In this document: piece after piece, positions 4,708-17,418 of the stretch
Position numbering within the stretch: the stretch's first letter is position 1
Layout of the letters: the number at the start of each line of letters is the position of its first letter
Assembly (NCBI RefSeq): GCF_030815855.1
Contig: NZ_JAUSXG010000001.1
Span: 3,658,001 to 3,722,000 of the forward strand
Length of the DNA: 64,000 nt
Direction of reading: 5' to 3'
DNA from: Variovorax paradoxus
GTDB lineage: Bacteria; Pseudomonadota; Gammaproteobacteria; Burkholderiales; Burkholderiaceae_C
Program-made: the position numbers and the translations under genes
The notes under the pieces: model-generated
What the model saw: the letters and a program-made list of their open reading frames with translations, nothing else
What the model was told of the DNA's origin: nothing
The model's database searches: none

Positions 4708-5550
4708 TCAGAAGCAGGTGAGCGAGCGGGCTGCGTGCTGGATGACTTCCACACACTCGGACGGCCGCGACGCGACGTGGGCGGCACGCGGCGCCCGCGC
4801 GGGGGTCGGCCGCTCAGCCACCGTGGCTGCGACCGGCAGGATTTCCTTCTCGCCGAACAATTGCCCCTTGGTGATGCCCGCGGTGGCGACCGTGGTCTTG
4901 TCCATCTGGTTGCGCAGCACCAGCGAGAGGGTTCCCACGCTGCGCGCCAGGTCGAGCTTTTCGGAGTCTTCGAGCGACAGCTCCAGCGTGACGGCGCTGA
5001 CCACCTTCGGTTTCGTCTCGTCGCGGTTGGCCTCTTGCGCCACGGCCAGCACCAGCACTTTCTCGAGCACGGTCTTGCTGATCTGGCGGCCCTCCTCGCC
5101 CCGGTTCTTGTCCTGCTGGGCGTTGACCATCACATCGACGTAGTTGCCCGGCAATGCGAAGCCCGCCACGCCGACCACGTCGTTGACCCGCACGGTCATC
5201 GCACGCTTGCCGCTCGCAATGACAGCGGAGAGTCCGCCCTGGGTACCCACCGGAGCGAGCTTGCCCTCGAGGATGGCTTCGCCGCGCAGCACCCCGACCT
5301 TGACCACGCGGTCTTCGAGCGCCTTCGTGTCCTTGAACGCGCCTGTCGGAACGGAGCCGCTCGGCCAATCGACCATCGACAGCATCTGCGGGTTGACGCG
5401 GCTGCCCAGTTCGATGTCGACGGCCGCGACGACCACCTTGTTGGAAGCGATGCCGCCCTGTCGGGAAACCCAGCCCGCCGCATAGACCGCGGCCGCCAGG
5501 CCGGTCAGAAGAGCCAGCAGAAGCAGCCCGAGCGCTTTGACGTTTTTCAT
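4708..5550 (-). CDS. cpaB: Flp pilus assembly protein CpaB/RcpC
   Basis: A 280-residue inner-membrane-anchored periplasmic protein. A membrane helix at about residues 7-25 is followed by a SAF domain (about 37-100, with Val-Ala-Ala-Val-Asp-Ile-Glu-Leu-Gly) and the RcpC/CpaB domain, which includes Pro-Gly-Asn-Tyr-Val-Asp-Val-Met. CpaB proteins work with the secretin in the periplasm, and some bind peptidoglycan or glycans through SAF. The length fits the family. The C-terminal ~35 residues are Ala/Pro/Arg-rich with two cysteines and look unstructured. It lies between the prepilin peptidase and the secretin, the standard order. Confidence 0.9.
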   Translation of the reverse strand: MKNVKALGLLLLALLTGLAAAVYAAGWVSRQGGIASNKVVVAAVDIELGSRVNPQMLSMVDWPSGSVPTGAFKDTKALEDRVVKVGVLRGEAILEGKLAPVGTQGGLSAVIASGKRAMTVRVNDVVGVAGFALPGNYVDVMVNAQQDKNRGEEGRQISKTVLEKVLVLAVAQEANRDETKPKVVSAVTLELSLEDSEKLDLARSVGTLSLVLRNQMDKTTVATAGITKGQLFGEKEILPVAATVAERPTPARAPRAAHVASRPSECVEVIQHAARSLTCF

Positions 5551-7475: not shown

Positions 7476-7551
7476 GGGCTCTTAGCTCAGTTGGTAGAGC
7501 AGCGGACTCTTAATCCGTAGGTCGAGTGTTCGAGTCACTCAGGGCCCACCA
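7476..7551 (+). tRNA. tRNA-Lys(CTT)
   Basis: A complete cloverleaf: acceptor GGGCTCT/AGGGCCC, D-stem GCTC/GAGC, anticodon stem GCGGA/TCCGT with loop CTCTTAA (anticodon CTT, Lys), and T-stem GAGTG/CACTC with loop TTCGAGT. CCA (7549-7551) is encoded. The 3' part from 7504 is duplicated at 15591-15647, marking this tRNA as the integration site of the element that follows. The gene stays intact because the element restores its 3' end. Confidence 0.97.
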
Positions 7552-7560
7552 CCAACACCA
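7504..7560 (+). repeat. attL: 57-bp direct repeat at left end of the element
   Basis: These 57 bases, from the anticodon stem of tRNA-Lys through CCA and nine further bases, are identical to 15591-15647. The identity ends sharply on both sides (C versus T before; G versus A after). Such a repeat of a tRNA 3' end is the hallmark of site-specific insertion by a tyrosine integrase. Confidence 0.95.
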
Positions 7561-7598
7561 GAAGTAGCGCGGTTTCCGTGCTATTTTTTTGTGAGCAC

Positions 7599-7628
7599 TG
7601 TTCCGCAATCGCGGATTGTGTTCCGCAA
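7599..7628 (+). repeat. Candidate integrase/excisionase arm sites, left end
   Basis: GTTCCGCAA occurs twice at 20-base spacing (7600-7608 and 7620-7628). The first copy extends to TGTTCCGCAATCGC (7599-7612), which is repeated exactly in inverse orientation near attR at 15537-15550. Position next to att cores suggests Int or Xis binding. Inference only. Confidence 0.5.
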
Positions 7629-7633
7629 AACTG

Positions 7634-7666
7634 AAAACCTCCCGCCTATCGGCGCGGAGGTTTTTT
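7634..7666 (+). terminator. Terminator downstream of tRNA-Lys, element-encoded
   Basis: Stem AACCTCC-CGCC / GGCG-C-GGAGGTT with a TATC loop and one bulged base, followed by six T. It stands inside the element and replaces the chromosomal tRNA terminator that was displaced to 15651-15691. Confidence 0.8.
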
Positions 7667-8174
7667 CTTTTCTGGCCGGAGACCGTCGATACTGCGCTGC
7701 CATCCGCATCAGCTACTCATCGAACATGGCTCAAACCTTTACTCTTCGGTTGCTCCTCGCTGGTCAAGATGACCTGATTTGCGAGGTTAGAGAGCCAGAA
7801 ACGAAAAGGCTCAGGAACGTTCTCGCGGGCGACGACTTCGAGGACGGCTTCTTTTGGTTCGACACCATTGATGGCCGAAGCATCATCGTGAACACGGAGC
7901 ATCTCCAAGGCGCTCGCTTTTTGTGGGACTTCATCCCGGGACCACCAGACTCCCGGATCAATGACAGCCACGAGTTCCTCATAGCATTCGTGGGCAAAGA
8001 AAAGCTATCAGAGTCTCCCAGTGAAGATCCCAAGGAGATGTACACGCTGTTCTGGGAGCTTGAGCTCGGAGGAACGAAGACAGTGACCTTCATCGACGTG
8101 GACGGCGAACCGTTTACCTTGATCCCGCGGCAGGTTGAATCGCCCCGGCTTTCGTGGAGGCCGGTTGGTTTAAG

Positions 8175-9119
8175 TCATACCACCGCCGTGGCGGTCTGAC
8201 TGGCGAGTTGCCGATAGTAGTTTGCCTCAGCTTCTGCAGGCGGGATGTAGCCGATCGGTTCGAGCAGGCGTTGGTGGTTGAACCAGGACACCCATTCGAG
8301 CGTTGCGAACTCCACCGCCTCCTTGGTCTTCCACGGTGCTCGGCGATGGATCAACTCGGCCTTGTAGAGCCCATTGATCGTCTCGGCCAGGGCGTTGTCA
8401 TAGGAGTCGCCTTTGCTGCCTACTGACGGCTCGATGCCCGCCTCGCCCAGCCGTTCGGTGTACCGGATGCTGACGTATTGCGAGCCGCGATCCGAGTGGC
8501 AAATCAAGCTGCCGTCGCGCTCGGGCTGACGGTCGTACAGCGCTTGCTCCAAGGCATCGAGCACGAAGTCCGTGCGCATCGAGCTACTGACCCGCCAGCC
8601 CACAATGCGCCGGGCGAACACGTCGATCACGAAGGCCACGTAGAGCCAGCCCTGCCAGGTCGACACGTACGTGAAGTCCGAGACCCACAGCTGGTTCGGA
8701 CGCTGCGCGCGGAACTGCCGGTTGACCCGGTCCAGCGGGCATGGCGCCCTGGCATCGCTGATCGTGGTCTTCACCACCTTGCCGCGCATCACGCCTCTCA
8801 GCCCCAAGCGCCGCATCAGCCGCTCGACCGTGCAGCGCGCCACCGCAGTGCCCTCGCGTGCCAGTTGCCTCCAGACCTTGTCGGCCCCATAGACCTGCAT
8901 GTTGGCCTGCCAGACGCGTTGTATCGCCGTAATGAGGACATCGTCGCGGCGTGCTCGGGCGCAGCGCTTGTGCGGCTCGCGCAGCAGTGCTGCGTGTCGC
9001 CGGTAGCCCGACGGGGCAACCTGCAAGACCTTGCAGATCGGCTCGACCCCGAAGGTGGCGCGATGCTTGTCGATGAAATCCCTCAGGACTTCAGCCGGCG
9101 GTCGAGCTCCGCCTGGGCG
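8175..9119 (-). CDS. IS3-family transposase OrfB (DDE integrase domain)
   Basis: This about 315-residue part forms the catalytic half of the transposase, made as an OrfAB fusion by a -1 frameshift. It has the HTH_21 region (His-Lys-Arg-Cys...Val-Tyr-Gly-Ala-Asp-Lys-Val) and an rve core with all three catalytic residues: Asp in Leu-Trp-Val-Ser-Asp-Phe, Asp in Ile-Cys-His-Ser-Asp-Arg-Gly-Ser, and Glu in [10 protein letters not shown]. The frame is open upstream into orfA. The fusion point is probably the run of five T (minus strand) at 9120-9124, so the start given is approximate. Confidence 0.9.
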
Positions 9120-9406
9120 AAAAACGCGCTCGCCAGCTTCAGGATCTCGTTGGCCCTGCGCAGCTCCTTGACCTCGCGCTCGAGTTCCTTCAACCGCTGC
9201 GCCTCGCTGGTCGTCACGCCTTCTCGCACGCCGTGGTCGATCTCGTCGCGTTTGACCCATTCGTTCAGCGTCTGCGGCACGCAGCCGATCTTCGGTGCAA
9301 TCGATTCGATCGCAGCCCATAGCGACGGGTACTCCCCACGGTGCTCCTGCACCATCCTCACCGCGCGCTCACGCACCTCGGGTGAAAACTTGTTCGACTT
9401 CTTCAT
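9083..9406 (-). CDS. IS3-family transposase OrfA
   Basis: A 107-residue helix-turn-helix protein (HTH_Tnp_1): [19 protein letters not shown], then [12 protein letters not shown]. A leucine-zipper-like coiled coil follows ([12 protein letters not shown]). It binds the IS ends and regulates transposition. The last residues overlap the orfB frame by about 40 bases, the standard arrangement for programmed -1 frameshifting. Its start lies 50 bases inside the right inverted repeat. Confidence 0.92.
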
Positions 9407-9592
9407 GGCTCAATCCTCTCAGAGTGTTGAGCCTCCACGAAATCCGGGGCGATTCAGGTCGTCTATTTGTCAGCGCCAAAAGAAGTGATTGACGAAGGTA
9501 GACGCCAAGTGGAAAAAGAAGATGAGCTCTGAGGTGAGTGAGGACTCAGGCGAAGCAGTGAAACCTAGTGGTCGTTGAGCGGAGCGGCATCG

Positions 9593-10480
9593 ATGGATTT
9601 ACGAGAATGGTTCGACGCGCTAACAGACAACAAGATCCGCGCAATGAAAGGTGATCCCGAGTCACAAGTCCTTGACTGCAAGAACATCGTCGGAGAGGGC
9701 GACATGAAGCGCAACCTTGCTGTTGTACTTTCCGGTTTTGGCAACGGGCAAGGCGGCATATGCATTTGGGGCGTTGACGCACGAAAAATTCAAGGGATCG
9801 ATTGCATCGACTCATTTCCAGGCATCCCAAATGCGCGGCAGCAGGCAACTCGTCTTGACGAGCTAACGCCAACAGCAGTCTCGCCCGGAGTGGCAGGGGT
9901 TGTGCACCGAGCGATTGCGAAACGCGGCGAGACCCATGGGTTCATCGCCACGTTCGTTCCAGCCAGTGATGCTGGACCGCATATGGCTCGGTATGGCGAG
10001 GATCGCTTCTACCAGCGGATTGGCCTGAGCTTTTCTCGCATGGAGCAATTCCAGATCGCGGACATGTTTGGCCGAAGAGCGCGACCGGTGCTTGAAGTGG
10101 GGCCAGTGCAGATTGCCCCGTATGAGATCTTGGTCCAGATTGTTAATTCCGGGCGTGGCGCAGCACGAGGCCTGTTCATCGAACTCGGGGTGGATGGGCC
10201 GTTTTATAGAAATGGCGGGGGCGTCGATGGAAATCGGAATGAGGGGCTACCCTACGTTGGCCGCAATATTGACGGGACTTGGTTGCACGCAGGCGACGCC
10301 AACACATTGCTTCATCCGACGATGCACGCGACGGTAGGGGGGGTGTGGCTAGGCTTTGAGCCAGCCAAGTTGATCAGCCAAGGAATCGTTCCAAAGGTCT
10401 TGAAGATTCGCTACAAGGTCGGCGCCCTCGACATCGCCCCTAGGTCGGGGGTTCTTGAGGTCCATCTCAGAGAACCGTGA
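9593..10480 (+). CDS. AlbA_2/Schlafen-like putative nucleic-acid-binding protein
   Basis: A 295-residue protein. The first ~140 residues fit the AlbA_2 (Schlafen AlbA) pattern: Gln-Val-Leu-Asp-Cys-Lys, then Asp-Met-Lys-Arg-Asn-Leu-Ala-Val-Val-Leu-Ser-Gly-Phe-Gly-Asn, then Gly-Gly-Ile-Cys-Ile-Trp-Gly-Val. The family usually has Glu-Phe-Lys where this has Asp-Cys-Lys. The C-terminal half is a beta-rich domain that I cannot name. AlbA_2 proteins include regulators, RNA-cleaving Schlafens and defence effectors. The ATG at 9593 is used in preference to the TTG at 9575. It stands alone between the IS-hit gene and the TA pair. Function not proven. Confidence 0.65.
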   Translation: MDLREWFDALTDNKIRAMKGDPESQVLDCKNIVGEGDMKRNLAVVLSGFGNGQGGICIWGVDARKIQGIDCIDSFPGIPNARQQATRLDELTPTAVSPGVAGVVHRAIAKRGETHGFIATFVPASDAGPHMARYGEDRFYQRIGLSFSRMEQFQIADMFGRRARPVLEVGPVQIAPYEILVQIVNSGRGAARGLFIELGVDGPFYRNGGGVDGNRNEGLPYVGRNIDGTWLHAGDANTLLHPTMHATVGGVWLGFEPAKLISQGIVPKVLKIRYKVGALDIAPRSGVLEVHLREP

Positions 10481-10525
10481 CTGCCGTGAACATACGCCTG
10501 TCACAACAGCACGTGCTACGGACGT

Positions 10526-10546
10526 AAAAGCCCTCTGGAGAGGGCT
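10526..10546 (-). terminator. Terminator after the YafO-type toxin gene
   Basis: A 7-base perfect stem (AGCCCTC / GAGGGCT) with a TGGA loop, followed on the minus strand by TTTTAC. It ends seven bases after the toxin stop codon. Confidence 0.75.
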
Positions 10547-10552
10547 AGATCG

Positions 10553-10981
10553 TCATCCGATCACAGCACCGCGCTCTATGAACGCTTTCGCGATGAGAGA
10601 GAGCTTCCGCATCAGCGTCTGATGTTCTGGGGTTCGCATCAACGCCACCTCGTGCGCAGTTGGTTCACCCAGGATGTAGATCAGCAAGTGCCCATGGGTC
10701 TGATCGCTCGCATACACCAGCGCCCGATCACTCACCTTTCGTGATCGTCTCCGCCATTGAATATCCCACTTAACGAGCGCGGAGGCTTCCAGCGGGACTA
10801 GATGAACGTGCTCCAGCCCGCCAGGGGCAATGTACGAGCTGTCCTTTCCGAACAGGTAGCTGGAGTACTCCCCAGCCACGCCGAGTGACTTCCAGTGATC
10901 AAACTCGGCAGCGAAATTGTCCGGGTCTTCGCTCAGCGTGGTGAGTTGCCGACGCAAGGCCTGCGTGCAACGGGTTGCCAA
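10553..10981 (-). CDS. yafO: YafO-family mRNA interferase toxin
   Basis: A 142-residue protein similar to E. coli YafO by eye: Phe-Asp-His-Trp-Lys-Ser-Leu-Gly, then Tyr-Leu-Phe-Gly-Lys-Asp-Ser-Ser-Tyr, then Glu-His-Val-His-Leu, then Ala-Leu-Val-Tyr-Ala-Ser, then Leu-Leu-Ile-Tyr-Ile-Leu-Gly-Glu-Pro. These are in the same order as in YafO (ribosome-dependent mRNA cleavage). It is slightly longer than E. coli YafO (132). The gene starts 12 bases after the stop of the small antitoxin-like gene, so both are one operon. It is expected to be neutralised by that partner and to stabilise the element. Confidence 0.8.
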   Translation of the reverse strand: MATRCTQALRRQLTTLSEDPDNFAAEFDHWKSLGVAGEYSSYLFGKDSSYIAPGGLEHVHLVPLEASALVKWDIQWRRRSRKVSDRALVYASDQTHGHLLIYILGEPTAHEVALMRTPEHQTLMRKLSLIAKAFIERGAVIG

Positions 10982-10993
10982 CGGAGGCTCGGC

Positions 10994-11218
10994 TCAGTCG
11001 ATGTGAGCGAAGGCATCGAGCGCGGACTCGACTGTGAAGAGGCGAGCGTTGGCCGGGTCTGCAATCTTGCGAAACGTGTTGTAGGTCTGCTCGCTGACGC
11101 GCACCACAGTCTGTGGACGCTTCTTGAGGACGCGCACAGCGTAGCTCACCCGCGCCGCTCGACGCGTGGGCGTCAGGTGCTTTTGCAGGCCGGTAACGGT
11201 GACTACGGCGGTCGTCAT
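10994..11218 (-). CDS. Putative antitoxin partner of YafO
   Basis: A 74-residue protein: MTTAVVTVTGLQKHLTPTRRAARVSYAVRVLKK..., directly upstream of the YafO-type toxin. The body, including Thr-Val-Val-Arg-Val-Ser-Glu-Gln-Thr-Tyr-Asn-Thr-Phe-Arg-Lys, could form a ribbon-helix-helix-like DNA-binding part, with a toxin-wrapping C-terminus. It does not look like YafN (Phd fold). A perfect palindrome (11238-11256) just before its start is the likely autoregulatory operator. The antitoxin role comes from size, position and operator. Confidence 0.65.
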   Translation of the reverse strand: MTTAVVTVTGLQKHLTPTRRAARVSYAVRVLKKRPQTVVRVSEQTYNTFRKIADPANARLFTVESALDAFAHID

Positions 11219-11237
11219 AAATTTCTGTTCGCGGTCT

Positions 11238-11256
11238 TAACTTCCAACGGAAGTTA
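11238..11256. promoter_or_regulatory. Palindromic operator of the TA operon
   Basis: TAACTTCC-AAC-GGAAGTTA is a perfect 8-base inverted repeat with a 3-base spacer, 20 bases upstream of the antitoxin start. This is a typical place for antitoxin/toxin autorepression. Confidence 0.65.
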
Positions 11257-11518
11257 TTTTCACCCAATTGACGGTTCCGTTAATAGGTCAAACGCTATGT
11301 CCTTGGGAGTACCGTAGATGAATGCGGCCTCTGGGAGTTTCAACTTTTCGTGGATTCCCCGGTTGACATCCCGTCAATGCTACGTTGACCGCTACATAAT
11401 CAATAGCACGATTGCCTTCTTGACAGGGTTGCTGCGTCGCGACATCGGGCGCAGCAGCGGGTCAAACGAGCGGCTGCGCGGCCGACGCGCCCGACCGACC
11501 ACTAAATAATGCCGTTAA
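11257..11518. other. Non-coding stretch with a 14-bp palindrome
   Basis: No convincing gene. It contains CCGTTAATTAACGG (11512-11525), a perfect palindrome, and a half-copy CCGTTAAT at 11278-11285. Both may be binding sites for an element-encoded regulator. The + frame at 11318-11509 has no ribosome site or recognisable protein character. Confidence 0.4.
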
Positions 11519-11713
11519 TTAACGGTCGTCCGTCGTGTTGATTGGCCTCAACCAGTCCACCGCCGCTTGGTCAGGAGACATCGCTCGGAGGCGTTCGTCG
11601 CGCCACAAGCCATGCGCGACTTCCTCCAGATCGAGCGGATCAACGGTGTGCCGCTGCTGCTGCAGCCGGTGCGCACAGGCGGCAATCCAGACGGTTGCAG
11701 TTACGTTTTCCAT
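11519..11713 (-). CDS. Small acidic unknown protein
   Basis: A 64-residue protein: MENVTATVWIAACAHRLQQQ..., then Asp-Leu-Glu-Glu-Val-Ala-His-Gly-Leu-Trp-Arg-Asp-Glu-Arg-Leu-Arg. It is helical and acidic with a Trp-Arg-Asp motif, and its composition looks like a real protein. Its start lies 20 bases from a near-consensus LexA box (11733-11752), divergent from the next gene, so it may be SOS-induced. I do not know the function. Its stop overlaps the palindrome at 11512-11525. Confidence 0.6.
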   Translation of the reverse strand: MENVTATVWIAACAHRLQQQRHTVDPLDLEEVAHGLWRDERLRAMSPDQAAVDWLRPINTTDDR

Positions 11714-11732
11714 GGGCTCATCATAACCAATC

Positions 11733-11752
11733 TACTGTATATTTGTACAGTA
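11733..11752. promoter_or_regulatory. LexA (SOS) box
   Basis: TACTGTATATTTGTACAGTA keeps the CTGT-N8-ACAG core and matches the E. coli 20-base consensus at 18 positions. It lies in the 58-base gap between two divergent small genes of the element (starts at 11713 minus and 11772 plus), so it could control either or both. Confidence 0.8.
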
Positions 11753-11771
11753 CAAAGGTATTAAGACCGTG

Positions 11772-12005
11772 ATGCCAGAGCCCCCTATTGAAGAAGAACT
11801 CGCCGAGATGGCGCGGCAGGTCGGCGAACTTGTCGAGGGGGAGCCGATGCGCTCAACACTGCTGGAGTTCGCCGATCTGGTGTCATGCAGGTGCGCGAGG
11901 ATCGGCGACCAGTACGGCGATTGGGACCGCAATGCGGGCGACCACGTCCGAGCGGTGATGCATGGGTTTCCGGTGCTGCTGCCGAAACCGCGAGCCGGCG
12001 AGTGA
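11772..12005 (+). CDS. Small unknown protein beside the SOS box
   Basis: A 77-residue protein: MPEPPIEEELAEMARQVGEL..., then Leu-Val-Ser-Cys-Arg-Cys-Ala-Arg-Ile-Gly-Asp-Gln-Tyr-Gly-Asp-Trp. The N-terminal half is an acidic helix. It starts 20 bases after the LexA box, and the ATG at 11772 is preferred to the GTG three bases earlier. I do not recognise it. Size, position and operator suit an SOS-controlled regulator such as an anti-repressor, but that is speculation. Confidence 0.55.
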   Translation: MPEPPIEEELAEMARQVGELVEGEPMRSTLLEFADLVSCRCARIGDQYGDWDRNAGDHVRAVMHGFPVLLPKPRAGE

Positions 12006-12011
12006 TACCTC

Positions 12012-12113
12012 ATGCGCGTGAAGATGAAACCCAGATACCGCGGCGGCACCCGACTGAGCAAGCGGGAGTTCGTTGATCAGCCGTGGCTGTGCGGGATGCT
12101 GACATTGAGGACT
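12012..12113 (+). pseudogene. Possible 5' fragment of an unknown gene, truncated
   Basis: An ATG at 12012, seven bases after the previous stop, opens MRVKMKPRYRGG followed by Leu-Ser-Lys-Arg-Glu-Phe. The frame stays open to 12305 only by running antisense through a recognisable primase fragment (12114-12299), so just the first third can be genuine. Low confidence; the gene may have lost its 3' part in the same deletion that cut the primase. Confidence 0.25.
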
Positions 12114-12299
12114 TTAGAAGGAAGGAGCCAGCTCGGCCTGTGGGAGGCGCGTCCAACCGCGCTGCCCATCCCAGAGATAGGCGCCATTGGTGCTGCGCGG
12201 CTTTTCGGTGGTCCCGCAGCGGTGGATCTTGTCCGAGGCAATGAACTTCTCGGGCTTGATCTCAACGCCATGGGCGCGGGCGAAGTCAAGGAAGCTCAT
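12114..12299 (-). pseudogene. N-terminal fragment of a phage/plasmid-type DNA primase
   Basis: The 61 residues MSFLDFARAHGVEIKP...Arg-Cys-Gly-Thr-Thr-Glu-Lys-Pro-Arg-Ser...Gly-Ala-Tyr-Leu-Trp-Asp-Gly-Gln-Arg-Gly-Trp look like the start of the Toprim/primase-helicase proteins of prophages and ICEs, which are several hundred residues long. Here the frame stops almost at once and no Toprim or helicase part follows. The ATG overlaps the stop of the upstream gene by 4 bases, so it was once part of a minus-strand operon. Family call from memory. Confidence 0.55.
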
Positions 12300-12544
12300 G
12301 GGTAGACAAACCTCTTGCCGCAGTCGCAGGTTTCCAGCTTCACGCCGGCAGTCCGCATGCGGCACTCCGACACGAAAACGTGCTCGGGCTCATCGTCAAA
12401 CTTGAACATCTCGCCGGTCATGGGGTGCTCGCGCACCGTGGAAACCCATCGCCCCACCGGACAGCTGAAGCGCTCGGAACCGGTGCCAGGTATCGGAGAA
12501 CCATCGGCGGCAAACCAGCCCCATGTTTTTCCTTCGTTGCTCAT
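12296..12544 (-). CDS. Unknown small protein with a Cys-rich C-terminus
   Basis: An 82-residue protein: MSNEGKTWGWFAADGSPIPG..., then Arg-Phe-Ser-Cys-Pro-Val-Gly-Arg-Trp-Val. The C-terminal part has Ser-Glu-Cys and Glu-Thr-Cys-Asp-Cys-Gly-Lys-Arg-Phe, which could bind a zinc ion. It is linked by 4-base overlaps to the genes on both sides (12541-12544 and 12296-12299), making a tight operon. Function unknown; probably a phage-type accessory protein. Confidence 0.6.
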   Translation of the reverse strand: MSNEGKTWGWFAADGSPIPGTGSERFSCPVGRWVSTVREHPMTGEMFKFDDEPEHVFVSECRMRTAGVKLETCDCGKRFVYP

Positions 12545-13005
12545 GCGGTCGCAGCCTCCTTCCGACGCTGCGCCGCGGCTGCAATGTGGTGGCTCTGCCG
12601 CTTGCCCTTGAGTCGCTTGGCGAGCGCATCAGACACGTCCACCACGGGCGCCGCATCAGCGCGCCACGTTGAAGGCGGCGGGCTGCCGGTGATTTCCCTG
12701 AACTGCATGTACGGGTAGCCGTCTTTTGACTTCACCCAGTCCGTACGCTTCGCGAAGGTGCAAAGCTGGTTCCACAGGTCTTGCTTCGTGCCGGCGAACG
12801 GCACCTTGCCGAGGAAGATCTCTTGCATCTCGCCGGCCTCGTGGGCAACGCCGAATGCGAGAACGCCAGCGCTCCATTGGGCGTGGCCTCGGAAGTGCTC
12901 GACCTCGTGCTTTCTGGCTTCGATGACCCAGCCCTTCACGGTGCATCCCGACTGCTGGACCTGGCAAAAGAGCGCCTCGATTTCGAAGTGGAAGGCCGCC
13001 TCCAT
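12541..13005 (-). CDS. Unknown element protein
   Basis: Read from the ATG at 13005 it is 154 residues (MEAAFHFEIEALFCQVQQSGC...); a longer version could start at 13041. Readable segments include His-Glu-Val-Glu-His-Phe-Arg-Gly-His-Ala-Gln-Trp and a basic C-terminus rich in Lys, Arg and Ala. It begins the minus-strand operon 13005-12114 and is divergent from the plus-strand operon that leads to the integrase. I do not recognise the family. Confidence 0.55.
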   Translation of the reverse strand: MEAAFHFEIEALFCQVQQSGCTVKGWVIEARKHEVEHFRGHAQWSAGVLAFGVAHEAGEMQEIFLGKVPFAGTKQDLWNQLCTFAKRTDWVKSKDGYPYMQFREITGSPPPSTWRADAAPVVDVSDALAKRLKGKRQSHHIAAAAQRRKEAATA

Positions 13006-13025
13006 AGCCTGAATGGGGTCAAGTG

Positions 13026-13679
13026 ATGCAGGCCCCATCAATTCCGGGCGTCGAGTTCGACGCAGGCGTGGGCGGCGATCACTACGTCGGCAGCGCCCAG
13101 GCGCTGATCGCGGCCGGCCTCATTACCCAGGCACACATCCCGCAGGTCGCATCTGTGACCTTCTTCAACGGCGTGCAAGTCGATGGCCGGAAGGTCAAGG
13201 GCATGCAGGACGAACGCTGGATGCAGGTTCGGTACGTGGGCCGCAGCCTCCGGGTCACGAAGGGGATCACGCGCAAAGAGCGAGCCCGCCGCGAGGAAGC
13301 GCGCAGGCAGGAAGCGGAAGAACTGGCCCGCACCGCACCGAAGAAAGATCCAGGCTTCGACGGCGCGCGGGCAATGAACTACAAGGCAAGCGCGGCATTC
13401 GTGATCGGAGACGAAGTTTTCGCCTACGGCCACGCCGCCACTGTGACCAGCACGTACAAGTTGCATCGCGTGAGAGATGACGAGGGGGAATTCAGCAACG
13501 GGGAAACCCGCGGCGACTACGTCCCCGGCTACCTGTGCCGCCTCAACGAAAGCGGGGAGGAATTCTTCTATCCGGCGCACGCCGTGCGGGCGAAGTCCGG
13601 GGCGGTGGGCCATCTTCGACTGGTGTCCGGCGCCGGCCAGCGTCGGGAAATCGGTTTCTCGATTCGGAGTCTCGCATGA
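13026..13679 (+). CDS. Unknown protein, first gene of the integrase operon
   Basis: A 217-residue protein with a conserved-looking first part (Pro-Gly-Val-Glu-Phe-Asp-Ala-Gly-Val-Gly-Gly-Asp-His-Tyr-Val-Gly). A highly charged Arg/Glu/Lys helix (about residues 80-110) follows, then a second folded part. No catalytic motif is seen. The ATG at 13026 is used. Its stop overlaps the RNase HI start (ATGA), so it is the first gene of a four-gene coupled operon ending in the integrase. It may have been co-opted from a phage early region. Confidence 0.6.
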   Translation: MQAPSIPGVEFDAGVGGDHYVGSAQALIAAGLITQAHIPQVASVTFFNGVQVDGRKVKGMQDERWMQVRYVGRSLRVTKGITRKERARREEARRQEAEELARTAPKKDPGFDGARAMNYKASAAFVIGDEVFAYGHAATVTSTYKLHRVRDDEGEFSNGETRGDYVPGYLCRLNESGEEFFYPAHAVRAKSGAVGHLRLVSGAGQRREIGFSIRSLA

Positions 13680-14125
13680 TCGAGATCTACACCGATGGGT
13701 CTTGCTGGCCCAACCCGAGCGCCAACGGCGGCTGGAGCTTCGTCGTGTACGAGAACGGCCACGAGCTCTGCACCTTCAGCGGCAAGGCCGACAGTCTCAC
13801 CTCGAGCAATCGCATGGAGCAAACCGCCATGCTGCGCGCCCTGCTGTGGCTCGGCGACCGTCCCGCAGTGCTGCACAGCGACAGCCGCTATGTGGTCGAT
13901 GGCCTCAATCTGTGGTCTGCGAAGTGGCAGCGCAACGGCTGGACGCGCAAGGACAAGGCCACCAAGAAGATCTGCGATGTGATGAACGCCGATCTCTGGC
14001 AAGTGATGGTGATTGCCCGCCAGCGTCAGCATGAGGTGCGCTGGGTCAAGGGGCACGCCGGCCACATCGGCAACGAGCGTGCGGATGGGCTCGCCGAAGC
14101 CGCGCGCGTCGGAATAGCTGCATGA
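13676..14125 (+). CDS. rnhA: Ribonuclease HI
   Basis: A 149-residue RNase H that cleaves the RNA strand of RNA-DNA hybrids. The catalytic carboxylates are present: Asp7 in Tyr-Thr-Asp-Gly-Ser, Glu48 in Arg-Met-Glu-Gln-Thr, Asp69 in His-Ser-Asp-Ser-Arg-Tyr, and Asp137 in Asn-Glu-Arg-Ala-Asp. A His-Ala-Gly-His loop precedes the last. The ATG at 13676 overlaps the preceding stop; the longer frame from 13535 is not used. It is coupled by ATGA to the DUF4224 gene. A mobile-element copy is likely additional to a housekeeping rnhA elsewhere, perhaps used in element replication. Confidence 0.9.
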   Translation: MIEIYTDGSCWPNPSANGGWSFVVYENGHELCTFSGKADSLTSSNRMEQTAMLRALLWLGDRPAVLHSDSRYVVDGLNLWSAKWQRNGWTRKDKATKKICDVMNADLWQVMVIARQRQHEVRWVKGHAGHIGNERADGLAEAARVGIAA

Positions 14126-14334
14126 GCGAACATCTATTCCTCAGCGATGCCGATCTAGCGAAGCTGACCGGCTTCAAGATCAAGTCCAAGCAAATCGATT
14201 GGCTGCGGACAGAAGGCTTGCCCTTCCGCATCAGCGCGACCGGCCATCCGGTCGTGACCCGTTCGGCGGTCGAGGGGCGCGAAGATTCCGCGACGGCCGA
14301 AATCAGCTGGACGCCCGGCTTGGTCGGAGGCTGA
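14122..14334 (+). CDS. DUF4224-type protein next to the integrase
   Basis: A 70-residue protein: MSEHLFLSDADLAKLTGFK..., then Gln-Ile-Asp-Trp-Leu-Arg-Thr-Glu-Gly-Leu-Pro-Phe and His-Pro-Val-Val-Thr-Arg. This is the DUF4224 pattern (a winged-helix-like module found just before phage integrases, possibly an excisionase or regulator). It overlaps the RNase HI gene by four bases and ends two bases before the integrase start. A role in directing integration or excision is inferred from this strict position. Confidence 0.75.
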   Translation: MSEHLFLSDADLAKLTGFKIKSKQIDWLRTEGLPFRISATGHPVVTRSAVEGREDSATAEISWTPGLVGG

Positions 14335-14336
14335 TC

Positions 14337-15467
14337 GTGGGCCGCAAACCATCACGGTGGGGCAACCTGCCGCGGGGGATGCGCGCGCGGCCGCGCGGCA
14401 ACCTCATCCACTACTACCTCGACACGGGCGGCAAGCCCCGCAAGGAAATCCCGCTCGGGTCGGACTACGCGCTTGCCGTCAAGAAGTGGGGCGAACTCGC
14501 CGTGCAGCCGCGGCCCGAAGGCGTGCAGCCGGCCAGCGAAGGCACGTTCGCGGCGGTCGTTCAGGCCTACTGGAAGGACATCATCCCAACGAAGGAGCCG
14601 CGCACCCGCCGAGACAACGAGAAAGAGCGCGTCTGGATCCTGCGCTTCTTCAACACGCCACCGGCGCCCATCGACAAGATCGAGCCCCAGCACATTCAGC
14701 AGTACCTCAACTGGCGCGTGAAGGAGGCCGTGAAAGCTGCAGAGGCCCGCAACGCCGCGCGGGTGAAGGCCGGGCGTGCGTCGGTGCCGATCCCACCGAA
14801 GTACGGCCAGGTACGCGCCAATCGCGAGAAGGCGCTGATCTCGCACATCTGGAACTATGCGCGATCAACAGGGAAGACCAAGCTCCCCAACCCGTGCGCC
14901 GGCATCAAGGGGTTCCGCGAGACCGGGCGCGATGTCTATGTGGACGACGAGCTATTCGAGCGCGTCAAACAGCACGCCGATAAGCCGCTCGAGTTCGCGA
15001 TGCGGCTTGCGGACACTACCGGCCAGCGGCCGGCTGATGTGCTGGGCATGAGCGAAGAGCACATTCGCGGCCAATACCTGGGCGTGAAGCAGGGCAAGAC
15101 GAAGGCGAAGCTGCGCATCATGGTCGAGAACGACCTCGAAACGCTGATCGAGGAAATCCGGGCCTACAAGGCCGGTCTTCCGAAGCAGGCGCCTCCGCTA
15201 TTGGTGAACGAGCGTGGCAACCCGCTCACCGCGGCAATGCTGCGCAAACGCTTCGACAAGGCCAGGAAGGCTGCAGGCATTGACATCGCAACATTTCAAT
15301 TCCGTGACCTGCGCGCGAAGGCCGCCACGGATGCCGACGACTCCACCGGCATCAAGGATGCGCAATCGCTGCTGGGCCATGCCACCGAAGAGATGACCGC
15401 CAAATACATCCGGCACAAGCTCGGCAAGAAGGTGCGCATCGGCACCTCGAAAAAGGAGTCGGAATAG
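14337..15467 (+). CDS. int: Tyrosine-family site-specific integrase
   Basis: A 376-residue phage-type integrase. After an arm-binding region and a SAM-like core-binding domain (about residues 70-185), the catalytic domain shows Arg231 (Gly-Gln-Arg-Pro-Ala-Asp), a Lys-rich beta-hairpin (about 253-258), Arg326 (Phe-Arg-Asp-Leu-Arg), His348 (Leu-Leu-Gly-His) and the nucleophile Tyr357. The usual first His of the HxxR box is Arg here, as in many phage integrases. The start is GTG 14337 with GGAGG six bases ahead. It ends 124 bases from attR and should catalyse insertion at the tRNA-Lys 3' end. Confidence 0.93.
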   Translation: MGRKPSRWGNLPRGMRARPRGNLIHYYLDTGGKPRKEIPLGSDYALAVKKWGELAVQPRPEGVQPASEGTFAAVVQAYWKDIIPTKEPRTRRDNEKERVWILRFFNTPPAPIDKIEPQHIQQYLNWRVKEAVKAAEARNAARVKAGRASVPIPPKYGQVRANREKALISHIWNYARSTGKTKLPNPCAGIKGFRETGRDVYVDDELFERVKQHADKPLEFAMRLADTTGQRPADVLGMSEEHIRGQYLGVKQGKTKAKLRIMVENDLETLIEEIRAYKAGLPKQAPPLLVNERGNPLTAAMLRKRFDKARKAAGIDIATFQFRDLRAKAATDADDSTGIKDAQSLLGHATEEMTAKYIRHKLGKKVRIGTSKKESE

Positions 15468-15478
15468 GTGTGCATTTT

Positions 15479-15550
15479 GTTCCGCAAATTTTCCGACCCC
15501 CGCGCCGATGCTGGGTTTCAAGACCGCGACATTGCAGCGATTGCGGAACA
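15479..15550 (+). repeat. Candidate integrase/excisionase arm sites, right end
   Basis: GTTCCGCAA (15479-15487) and its inverse TTGCGGAAC (15541-15549) flank a 53-base spacer. The second extends to GCGATTGCGGAACA (15537-15550), the exact reverse complement of the left-end site at 7599-7612. TTTTGTTCCGCAA and TTGCGGAACAAAA also form a 13-base inverted pair. Likely Int or Xis sites of the element. Confidence 0.5.
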
Positions 15551-15590
15551 AAATCTTAGCTAAGTTGTTGATGTTGCTTGTGAAGTCTGT

Positions 15591-15647
15591 GGACTCTTAA
15601 TCCGTAGGTCGAGTGTTCGAGTCACTCAGGGCCCACCACCAACACCA
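15591..15647 (+). repeat. attR: right copy of the 57-bp repeat
   Basis: Identical to 7504-7560. It holds only the tRNA-Lys 3' portion, with no 5' half, so it is not a functional tRNA. It marks the right end of the element. Confidence 0.95.
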
Positions 15648-15650
15648 AGA

Positions 15651-15691
15651 ACGGTCGAAACCAAGCATCCATGCAGGTTTCGGCCGTTTTT
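15651..15691 (+). terminator. Original chromosomal terminator of tRNA-Lys
   Basis: Stem ACGGTCGAAACC / GGTTTCGGCCGT (one G-T pair) with a 13-base loop, then five T. It directly follows attR and, before integration, would have followed the tRNA gene. Confidence 0.75.
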
Positions 15692-15784
15692 CTTTGTGCT
15701 CCTTACGGATTGCGCTGACGCGCCGAACGCCATGATTTCTTGGGGTTTGGCGCAATTTTGGCGCAACGGAGACTCAGCGCCCAT

Positions 15785-16257
15785 TGTTGATTGCCGCCGA
15801 AAATTGACCCGGCTAACGCACTAATTTCCGTCTAAGACTGACCCACGTAAAACTCTACCCTGCTCATTTTTAAGGCAGGGGATCCTAGGAGTGATAGACG
15901 TGGCGACATTGAGTGTCATCAGACGCTGGGCCCTGCGCGAGCAGATGTCCATTCGCGAGATAGCCAGGCGTACAGGCCTGTCTCGCAACACCGTAAAGAA
16001 GTACCTGCGAGCGGGCGAAGAAGCGCCGCGCTACACCAAGCGGGCGAGCTCGAGCAAGCTCGATCCCTATGCCGACAAGCTCGCGAACTGGCTCGCGATC
16101 GAGGCCACCAAATCGCGGAAACAGCGGCGCAATCTGCGGCAGATCCACACAAGGAGAACATCAAGCACTTATCCACACCGTGAAGCCTTCGGGCTCACAA
16201 AGCGGGTGGGTCAGTATTCGATGGAAATCTCGGGTCAGAGATCGGTGGAATCCAACA
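15785..16257 (+). mobile_element. IS21-family remnant with internal deletion
   Basis: Left end TGTTGATTGCCGCCGAAAAT and right end (complement) TGTTGGATTCCACCGATCTC, each followed by the repeated TGACCC boxes typical of IS21-family termini. The family is about 2-2.5 kb; only 473 bases remain, holding the beginning of istA joined to the end region. No target duplication is obvious. It lies 137 bases outside attR, so it is not part of the tRNA element. Confidence 0.75.
15891..16148 (+). pseudogene. istA 5' fragment (IS21 transposase)
   Basis: From a GTG at 15891 the frame encodes the IstA N-terminus: Trp-Ala-Leu-Arg-Glu-Gln-Met-Ser-Ile-Arg-Glu-Ile-Ala-Arg-Arg-Thr-Gly-Leu-Ser-Arg-type helix-turn-helix, then Tyr-Leu-Arg-Ala-Gly. 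Similarity ends after Leu-Arg-Gln-Ile-His (about 16148). The DDE catalytic core is missing, so the protein cannot transpose. The frame happens to stay open to 16385. Confidence 0.75.
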
Positions 16258-16661
16258 AGCCAGGAGAACTGCCGATGAAGTTGGCGACTACAAGGCGACG
16301 TCAGTTAGTTATTGCCGATATGTACTACCAAATGTGTACAACTTTGCTTCGTGCCGCCCTCCCGCGCACCGCTCACAGAGGGTGAGTTCTCCACCATTGC
16401 GGTGGATAAGACAGTGGACAAGCATGTGCGCATCGCCCGGGAACGTTGCTACGCCCGCGTCGCGACGCTGCGCCTGCAAAAGCGGCACTGCCTCCAAGCG
16501 CCACCGGCCGAGACACCGTCGGCATCGAGGGCAACACGGCTACAGCCGCCCGTATGAAGAGCTTCTTTTAATGTGAAAAGGTCACATTTTTTACCCCGGT
16601 CGGCCACACTGATGAGCTCGGAAAGACGGAAGCTCCTGGGTTTCGAACAGGGGTGAACGCC
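16258..16661. other. 404 bases without a convincing gene
   Basis: Short frames here have no ribosome sites and arginine/alanine-rich shadow composition. One feature stands out: AATGTGA-AAAGG-TCACATT (16571-16587), a perfect 7-base inverted repeat with a 5-base spacer. It resembles a CRP/FNR-type site but is one base short of the usual six-base spacing. Confidence 0.4.
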
Positions 16662-16934
16662 ATGCTCAATCAAATCATCCACAACGCGACGATCACGCTG
16701 CTGTTGCCGCTCGACATGAGCGCCAGCGAGGAACTCGCGGCGCTTCGATCCGCGGGCATTCCAGTCGACGAGCTGGGCAATGCGACATCGGGCTATCTGT
16801 TTGTGCGCGCCACGGGCCGCAGCGATCACCGGACGAACACCTTCCGCTGGTTTGCCACCGGCATCGGCGGGCCCCCTGCCGATGCGAGCAGGCCGACGCC
16901 GGTGCCTGCGGAAAGCCATGCTGCGGCGTGGTGA
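16662..16934 (+). CDS. Unknown small protein
   Basis: A 90-residue protein: MLNQIIHNATITLLLPLDMSAS, then Glu-Glu-Leu-Ala-Ala-Leu-Arg-Ser-Ala-Gly-Ile-Pro-Val-Asp-Glu. An AGGGG box lies at proper distance before the ATG at 16662. It is mildly hydrophobic at the N-terminus but without a clear signal peptide. The CRP-like palindrome at 16571-16587 is about 75 bases upstream. I do not recognise it; it may be a lineage-specific gene. Confidence 0.5.
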   Translation: MLNQIIHNATITLLLPLDMSASEELAALRSAGIPVDELGNATSGYLFVRATGRSDHRTNTFRWFATGIGGPPADASRPTPVPAESHAAAW

Positions 16935-17019: not shown

Positions 17020-17418
17020 TCAGCCCGCCAACCACTGCTCCGCGAAGCGCGACAGCAACTCGCGGTTCTCGCTCACCTCCGAAAGCAGATATCGCCGCGC
17101 ATGTTCCTGGGCCAGTTCGCTGGACAAGAACCACTGCTCGCGCGCTGGATCGCCCTGCGGGGGCGGGGTGCCCCACACGGTGCTCTCGCCGAGAAAGGCT
17201 TCTGTGACGGGCAGGCGCCCGTCGGTTCGGCCCAGATCCGACAATGGATTGCTCGGACCGCCAAGCTCGACGCGGGCATGAACGGCATCGCCCTCCACCG
17301 TGATGGAAGCACCCAGCCCACCCTCTTGGTGGACTTGCCACAGTTGCTCGGCGGAAGCGTGGCGAACCCAGCTTTCCAACGCCCGCCTCAGGCTTTCGCA
17401 GATGATTTCTTTGTTCAT
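17020..17418 (-). CDS. Unknown protein
   Basis: A 132-residue protein: MNKEIICESLRRALESWVRHAS, then Ala-Glu-Gln-Leu-Trp-Gln-Val-His-Gln-Glu-Gly-Gly. It ends with a helical part (Ser-Glu-Val-Ser-Glu-Asn-Arg-Glu-Leu-Leu-Ser-Arg-Phe-Ala-Glu-Gln-Trp-Leu). It is acidic, soluble and without known motifs. Composition and a low-Arg helix pattern favour a real gene over the overlapping antisense frames. Convergent with the small gene at 16662. Confidence 0.55.
   Translation of the reverse strand: MNKEIICESLRRALESWVRHASAEQLWQVHQEGGLGASITVEGDAVHARVELGGPSNPLSDLGRTDGRLPVTEAFLGESTVWGTPPPQGDPAREQWFLSSELAQEHARRYLLSEVSENRELLSRFAEQWLAG

Follow-up and report, generated by a model that had tools for sequence, protein, structure and literature searches.

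The window analysed here is a stretch of 64,000 nucleotides of Variovorax paradoxus (NCBI RefSeq assembly GCF_030815855.1, contig NZ_JAUSXG010000001.1, positions 3,658,001 to 3,722,000 of the forward strand), from a host genome of 5.95 Mb in a single contig whose close named relatives are Variovorax. It contains a single tRNA gene, a tRNA-Lys(CTT) predicted by ARAGORN, within which the first copy of a 57-bp direct repeat begins. The second copy, 100% identical, lies beside a tyrosine integrase, and the spacing of the copies, which equals the unit length of the integrative element that they enclose, is 8,087 bp. Repeat, spacing and integrase had been proposed in a first-pass annotation made from the sequence alone and are confirmed by measurement. 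Its wording that the element is defined to the base goes too far, since the unit length is exact and the crossover may lie anywhere inside the repeat. With up to three mismatches allowed, a 23-nt piece of the repeat occurs twice in the window (0.00 expected) and no third core copy was found. The features of the element and of its right flank are given in Table 1.

Table 1. Features at the tRNA-Lys(CTT) site, in window positions.
Position	Strand	Feature	Basis or remark
7476..7551	+	tRNA-Lys(CTT), attachment-site gene, complete copy on the attL side	ARAGORN; in relatives beside the same left-hand gene
7504..7560	+	attL copy of the 57-bp core	100% identical to 15591-15647
7598..7630		Left arm, two TTCCGCAA motifs (7601, 7621)	Probable integrase arm-type sites
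7726..8135	+	Open reading frame (ORF) cut by IS3-family insertion, no family	ORF runs into the insertion sequence
8136..9456	-	IS3-family insertion sequence	OrfA 9083-9406, OrfB 8175-9320; HTH_Tnp_1 and rve
9593..10480	+	SLFN/AlbA_2-like cargo gene, 295 amino acids	Pfam SLFN_AlbA_2 2.9e-05, 25.0 bits, just below cut-off 25.3
10553..10981	-	YafO-like type II toxin	Pfam YafO_toxin 1.2e-06
10994..11218	-	Putative antitoxin, 74 amino acids	Position beside toxin gene; no family match
11519..11713	-	Small ORF, 64 amino acids, divergent from SOS-box gene	DNA conserved in three sister-species prophages
11735..11750		LexA/SOS-type box CTGTATATTTGTACAG, CTGT-N8-ACAG
11772..12005	+	Small protein, 77 amino acids, directly past SOS box
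12114..12299	-	Truncated DNA primase	About 50 of 296 residues kept, N-terminal and of phage origin
12153..12154		Deletion junction 1	DNA of the far prophage end fused to primase N-terminus
12296..12544	-	Small ORF between helicase and primase	98% amino acid identity to L106
12541..13026	-	Chimeric scar ORF	Residues 60-160 = C-terminus of 515-residue superfamily 2 (SF2) helicase; residues 1-59 of other origin
12859..13043		Deletion junction 2	About 184 bp of residual DNA
13023..13679	+	ORF218, phage gene of 218 amino acids, function not assigned	Homologues in viral contigs and sister prophages
13676..14125	+	RNase HI (rnhA), 149 amino acids	Pfam 1.6e-31, PHROG 5.9e-44
14122..14334	+	DUF4224 excisionase (xis), 70 amino acids	Pfam 5e-16, PHROG excisionase 2.9e-17
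14331..15467	+	Tyrosine integrase (int), 378 amino acids, full length, frame undamaged	Pfam Phage_integrase, PHROG integrase
15480..15548		Right arm, TTCCGCAA motif at 15480, inverse at 15541	Presumed arm-type role
15591..15647	+	attR copy of the 57-bp core	100% identical to 7504-7560
15648..15784	+	Remnant of another tRNA-Lys element, its left end
15824..16228		Remnant with 23-nt inverted repeat (87% complementary), helix-turn-helix (HTH) part	Inverted repeat; HTH matches
17020..17418	-	Nearest native backbone gene on the right side of the site	Homologue <200 nt from tRNA in 13/29 relative loci

The gene left of the tRNA together with the tRNA itself was used as query for the site in 101 genomes (the host and 100 relatives) and matched in some way in all of them, because tRNA genes match widely. 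Occupancy was judged on the 29 best relative loci, for each of which 1.5 kb of downstream DNA was searched with the backbone protein of 17020-17418. The site is empty in 13 of these, the backbone match starting 68-195 nt past the tRNA; the gene lies about 1.0-1.2 kb past the tRNA in two loci and outside the 1.5 kb examined in 14. Of these 14, two (L059 and L060) are without this gene and have the backbone block after it (from 17967) at a distance of about 0.1 kb from the tRNA, so that no large element is present there either. The remaining 12 loci are occupied, rearranged or ambiguous. The element is thus an insertion bounded by attachment (att) cores at a site empty in relatives, as defective prophages are, and the empty tRNA-Lys sites which the first-pass annotation had suggested looking for in Variovorax exist beside occupied ones.

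Three larger prophages of sister species (40-47 kb) share part of the contents. Those of genome G043, taken as Variovorax sp. OAS795 (46.9 kb; same alignments as the IMG/VR viral genome UViG 2931827682_000001), and of G042 (39.8 kb) are bounded by tmRNA repeats with 29-bp cores, and that of G004 (46.8 kb) by tRNA-Gly repeats of 89 bp at 93%. All three carry ORF218 and the SOS-box block, helicase and primase are present except in G042, and rnhA is found in G043 and G042. They differ from the element in being far larger, in their tmRNA or tRNA-Gly site and, in G043, in structural genes: between the blocks shared with the element lie matches to terminase, portal, head maturation protease, major head, major tail and tape-measure proteins. 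The pieces of the three prophages compared gave no match to the integrase of the element at E 0.01.

The order of the shared blocks is retained. Blocks 11539-12154, 12153-12299, 12539-12859 and 13044-14125 are colinear in G043, with order and orientation as in the window, but the SOS-box block is separated from the primase block by 27.6 kb (10 bp here) and the helicase from the ORF218 block by 6.7 kb (about 190 bp here). In G004, where order and orientation also agree, the first gap is 29.0 kb against about 376 bp in the window and the second 14.1 kb against about 184 bp; in G042 the SOS-box and ORF218-rnhA blocks are about 33 kb apart. Phage genes kept in the order of larger relatives, a mark of defective prophages, are therefore seen against G043, in subsets against G042 and G004, and for the int end against the viral contig L116 described below.

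The primase and helicase genes survive as truncated ends, about 50 of 296 and about 100 of 515 residues respectively. A contiguous 697 bp (12153-12849) is 93.4% identical to the IMG/VR contig L106, in which the counterpart runs from the end of an ORF of 515 codons through a stretch of 82 codons into the beginning of the ORF that follows; the orthologues in contig L107 are a DNA helicase (PHROG 3.2e-82; Pfam ResIII, Helicase_C) and a DNA primase (PHROG 8.9e-30; Toprim_3). Amino acid identity of the primase fragment is 92% to L106 and G004 and 84% to L107/G043. In the chimeric scar ORF, residues 60-160 are 97% identical to G004 and 92% to G043, the match being limited to those residues, and residues 5-58 weakly match contig L114 upstream of its ORF218; no relative of the scar ORF at E 1e-3 was found among 25 candidates, which comprised only proteins of 0.55-1.75 times its length. 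Within the residual DNA at junction 2 a 64-bp stretch is 78% identical to L114, also upstream of the L114 ORF218, and is likely to be a trace of the DNA removed. In the 101 genus genomes 79 (host included) match region 12153-14125, mostly with short weak pieces; strong matches are those of G043, G042 and G004, partial ones at 72-76% occur in G015, G003, G005 and G417, and among the matches listed only that of the host itself runs across junction 2. Remnants of helicase and primase that nearly touch other blocks are as expected from internal deletions, and it is genes essential to a phage that have been truncated. Compared with the larger relatives, one joint is placed within about 10 bases and the other within about 200 bases. 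No packaging, head or tail gene was matched by the element proteins above the curated cut-offs of Pfam and PHROGs; the first-pass annotation had likewise seen no capsid or conjugation gene.

The integration module at the right end appears undamaged. In an alignment of the integrase with seven relatives no frame damage is seen, and it has the conserved blocks of these relatives, among them TGQRPADVL, QFRDLRAKAAT and LGH...Y, which we take to be the catalytic positions and which are present in most or all rows. Matches at E 1e-3 are found in 26 of the 101 genomes (host included), the only close ones, over nearly the whole protein, being those of V. guangxiensis DSM 27352 (G049; 79-80% amino acid identity) and Variovorax sp. 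CAN15 (G060; 78%). In the latter, tRNA-Lys and int are on separate contigs, so that the extent of its element is not defined. Among 50,697 phage records 122 match the integrase, each below 60% identity, which means that this set holds no close phage record; ORF218 has no match in it. The excisionase is 74% identical to that of V. guangxiensis, and no paper linking DUF4224 with excisionase was found in the literature searched. RnhA is 91% identical in G043, 95% in G042 and 60% in L116. ORF218 is 79% identical in G004, 76% in G043, 67% in G042 and 73-76% in five IMG/VR viral contigs of 34-44 kb, and among 299 genomes of the family it matches its own genome and, weakly, one other. Viral contigs of 34-44 kb in IMG/VR also match ORF218 and rnhA together (13044-14125), in whole or in part.

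Two larger elements resemble this end of the element. The prophage of V. guangxiensis (G049 C39:255066-297250; same alignments as the 41.8 kb UViG 2831265667_000003) has int at 80%, xis at 74%, the same tRNA-Lys and the same core; a further copy of the core lies 42.1 kb away from the one in tRNA-Lys and has int beside it, a layout as in the element. It differs in being five times larger and in carrying a major head protein (PHROG). Contig L116 (UViG 2926214390_000002), larger than the element at 34.2 kb, shares with it the gene order ORF218-rnhA-xis-int (73%, 60%, 69% and 68% amino acid identity) and has a stretch of 54 residues at 56% identity to the putative antitoxin between its rnhA and xis. 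This int module and the rnhA-ORF218 pair therefore co-occur in a larger element. No helicase or primase match was found in the 10.5 of 34.2 kb of L116 compared.

A divergent pair of small genes around an identical SOS box (11519-12005) is conserved toward one end of Variovorax prophages. Identity of the block is 85% in G004 (11539-11776), 87% in G042 (11539-12154) and 76% in G043 (11539-12143), and the identical 16-bp box or its complement stands at the homologous place in all three; the nearest relative of the 77 amino acid protein in G004 is distant (39%) and 2.5 kb from the box. This protein has 25 homologues besides itself, the four with organism names all being Variovorax, and matches in 34 of 100 genus genomes (host included), many of them weakly. 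Neither small protein has a Pfam match and the larger one has no PADLOC match. Regulation of the pair by LexA would be consistent with the box.

From these comparisons we conclude that the element is very probably a cryptic (defective) prophage, shrunk by internal deletions from a tailed phage of the 40-kb class, and "decayed phage", one of the two natures offered at first pass, is the one favoured by the colinear blocks and the truncated replication genes. The ancestor would have been a temperate tailed phage of the 40-47-kb type of sister Variovorax species, equipped with a tRNA-Lys-specific integrase module. As the integrase family suggests, Int would have recombined attP with the tRNA-Lys(CTT) gene in its 3' part, so that the tRNA was restored and the 57-bp copy came to lie at the far end of the insert; the repeat, the intact tRNA and the empty sites are observed. 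Comparison with the larger relatives shows two internal deletions and the insertion of the IS3-family element, all of which probably followed integration. One deletion took out about 28 kb, in which lay the greater part of the primase gene together with the genes for terminase, portal, capsid and tail; the other took out about 7-14 kb, with most of the helicase and the genes up to ORF218; and the IS3-family element interrupted an ORF at the left end. What remains is int-xis-rnhA, ORF218, the SOS-box gene pair and a cargo of the AlbA_2-like gene and a YafO-type toxin-antitoxin (TA) pair. Because Int, Xis and both cores look intact, as do the arm motifs, excision by Int and Xis is plausible, and we put the chances that the element still excises at about even; DNA damage and the SOS response may perhaps be the trigger. 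Replication and packaging on its own should be beyond the element.

Several observations weigh against this interpretation. No one prophage that unites int, xis, rnhA, ORF218, helicase/primase and the SOS-box gene was seen, and with part of L116 compared the parental phage is thus partly a reconstruction. Helicase and primase find no match in G042, nor rnhA in G004, and a comparison of the V. guangxiensis prophage with rnhA, ORF218 and the pieces of helicase and primase at E 0.01 gave none either. In the sister prophages compared, nothing corresponds to the left 4 kb (7561-11538) apart from the arm, the insertion sequence and, in G033, the AlbA_2 homologue; later insertions may be part of this segment. 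Finally, an intact int and a perfect pair of cores amount to little decay at the ends, so that a recent origin and maintained mobility look alike.

A further reading is a composite origin, in which two elements would have entered this tRNA-Lys hotspot one after the other, one giving rise to the left 4 kb and the other to the right 4 kb, and a deletion would have fused them. That the site is a hotspot is seen from 15648-15784 coming from another element and 16571-16868 and 16322-16487 being shared with other genomes, and left-arm-like sequence is found in G004, G018, G020 and G042 without a match to this integrase there. Block 11539-12154, however, comes from the far end of the type of prophage to which the replication and ORF218 blocks also belong, in the order and orientation to be expected, and we regard a composite as unlikely though not negligible; it is in any case a variant of the decayed prophage and compatible with it. 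Acquisition of a phage integrase by an integrative and mobilizable element (IME), an integrative and conjugative element (ICE) or a non-phage genomic island would agree with the AlbA_2-like and TA cargo, and IMEs without conjugation genes may occur. The Pfam matches include neither a relaxase nor a conjugation protein, and blocks from three or more separate parts of larger prophages keep their original order, a colinearity which in the main refutes this origin and makes it exceedingly improbable.

"Satellite-like" was the other nature offered at first pass. A phage satellite would be a small element keeping int, xis and att and packaged by a helper phage of the G043 type, and it would be compact, with intact int and xis, a SOS-box gene and cargo genes and with structural genes not found, all of which is seen here; related prophages are moreover present in sister species. 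The replication genes, however, exist as truncated ends only, leaving no intact replication or regulatory module, and no satellite-type regulator or capsid-remodelling protein was matched among the element proteins scanned (Pfam, PHROGs). The packaging site is usually located in the terminase region, which here falls in the missing part. The scar ORF is without relatives among proteins of similar length, and the terminase family of the G043 type (phrog_9) was not found in the host genome, controls being positive in 4 of 14 genomes. Much of what remains being pieces of larger prophages, we hold a satellite to be very unlikely. Hardly to be expected either is a satellite at its birth from a prophage, in which the deletions would have made a minimal excisable carrier of int, xis, the SOS-box gene and the AlbA_2 and TA cargo, spread occasionally by related helper phages. 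About 124 kb before the window the host genome has a terminase-type match (G000:C1:3533133-3534344; phrog_2, 7.9e-32); phrog_2 is positive in 11 of 14 control genomes, and the match may or may not mark another prophage.

The cryptic prophage at tRNA-Lys(CTT) appears as an ordinary case of prophage decay, well resolved by comparison; it is no new kind of element and leaves the general picture unchanged. Cryptic prophages generally show internal deletions and insertion sequences and retain ends and cargo. There is no essential difference between the element and cryptic or "grounded" prophages, the subject of a review (PMC6379469). The novelty suggested at first pass can apply to no more than this copy: for V. 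paradoxus EPS, a prophage region beginning at a tRNA-Lys gene was reported in 2013 (PMC3813184). In this strain, taken as G033, an AlbA_2 homologue (66%), a homologue of the 77 amino acid protein (64%) and a copy of the insertion sequence (1,321 bp, 93% identical) lie within about 11.5 kb. Unlike in the element, the gene order differs and ARAGORN calls the site tRNA-Lys(TTT), hence a different tRNA-Lys gene; 60 kb examined gave no int, xis or rnhA match, and no strict SOS box is present in the piece with the 77 amino acid homologue. Within one genus the tRNA-Lys(CTT) site is found empty, fully occupied, shrunken and stacked, which should be of use in annotating the site and in judging small tRNA-bounded "satellites".

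The first-pass list of contents agrees with the family matches and comparisons for int, DUF4224, RNase HI, the primase fragment and the SOS box, and requires amendment at the left end. It missed the IS3-family copy, whose 26-bp inverted repeats are 96% complementary and which comes with a GGT duplication of 3 bp. Its TA pair stands for the YafO-like toxin, the partner being a putative antitoxin by position, and its AlbA_2-like protein stands with a score just under the cut-off. In a large protein set 92 homologues of the AlbA_2-like protein were found apart from itself, and among 100 genus genomes (host included) there is a close one in G033 and weak ones in G409 and G383. The longer left frame (7591-8196) has no Pfam, PHROG or PADLOC match, and seven element proteins gave no match in a PADLOC scan at E 0.01.

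Within 250 nt past the tRNA, TTCCGCAA occurs in two copies each in G049 and G018, in one copy each in G020 and G042, and in none of the other 25 loci. At the tRNA-Lys sites of G004, G018, G020 and G042 (L094-L097) left-arm-like sequence with intact or altered motifs of this type is seen. These four genomes have no match to this integrase family at the tRNA-Lys site, and the sequences are probably scars of older attL sites.

The right flank is not native chromosome but, from 15648, the end of a different tRNA-Lys element, which the first-pass annotation missed. Segment 15591-15784 is 95% identical to the tRNA-Lys end and following DNA of G039, and there another core follows at a distance of 10 kb. 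The remnant at 15824-16228 has an HTH part which is presumably that of an IS21/IstA-type transposase, 16571-16868 is common to the same site in G004 and G042, and 16322-16487 matches the far end of the G043 prophage at 78%. Of the second element (from 15648) only the end remains; after it, up to 16970, come the transposase remnant and stretches in common with G004, G042 and G043, and native sequence follows from about 17020. With the end of another tRNA-Lys element as right neighbour, remnants are stacked at the site, which appears to hold at least two elements, the present one lying between the tRNA and the other remnant.

Other occupants of the site were noted in passing. The 10-kb tRNA-Lys element of G039 (L088 1369-11447) has matches to YcaO, DUF6176, HlyD and a C39-peptidase/ABC transporter, with a weak Int_N match at its left end (24.2 bits, cut-off 27), and looks like an export island for a bacteriocin or a ribosomally synthesized and post-translationally modified peptide (RiPP). 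In Variovorax sp. CAN15, about 3 kb from the tRNA-Lys copy, L093 5320-6492 is a strong match to BstA (PADLOC 6.5e-119) with a SOS-type box upstream at 5008; BstA is a prophage-encoded defence family (PMC8585504).

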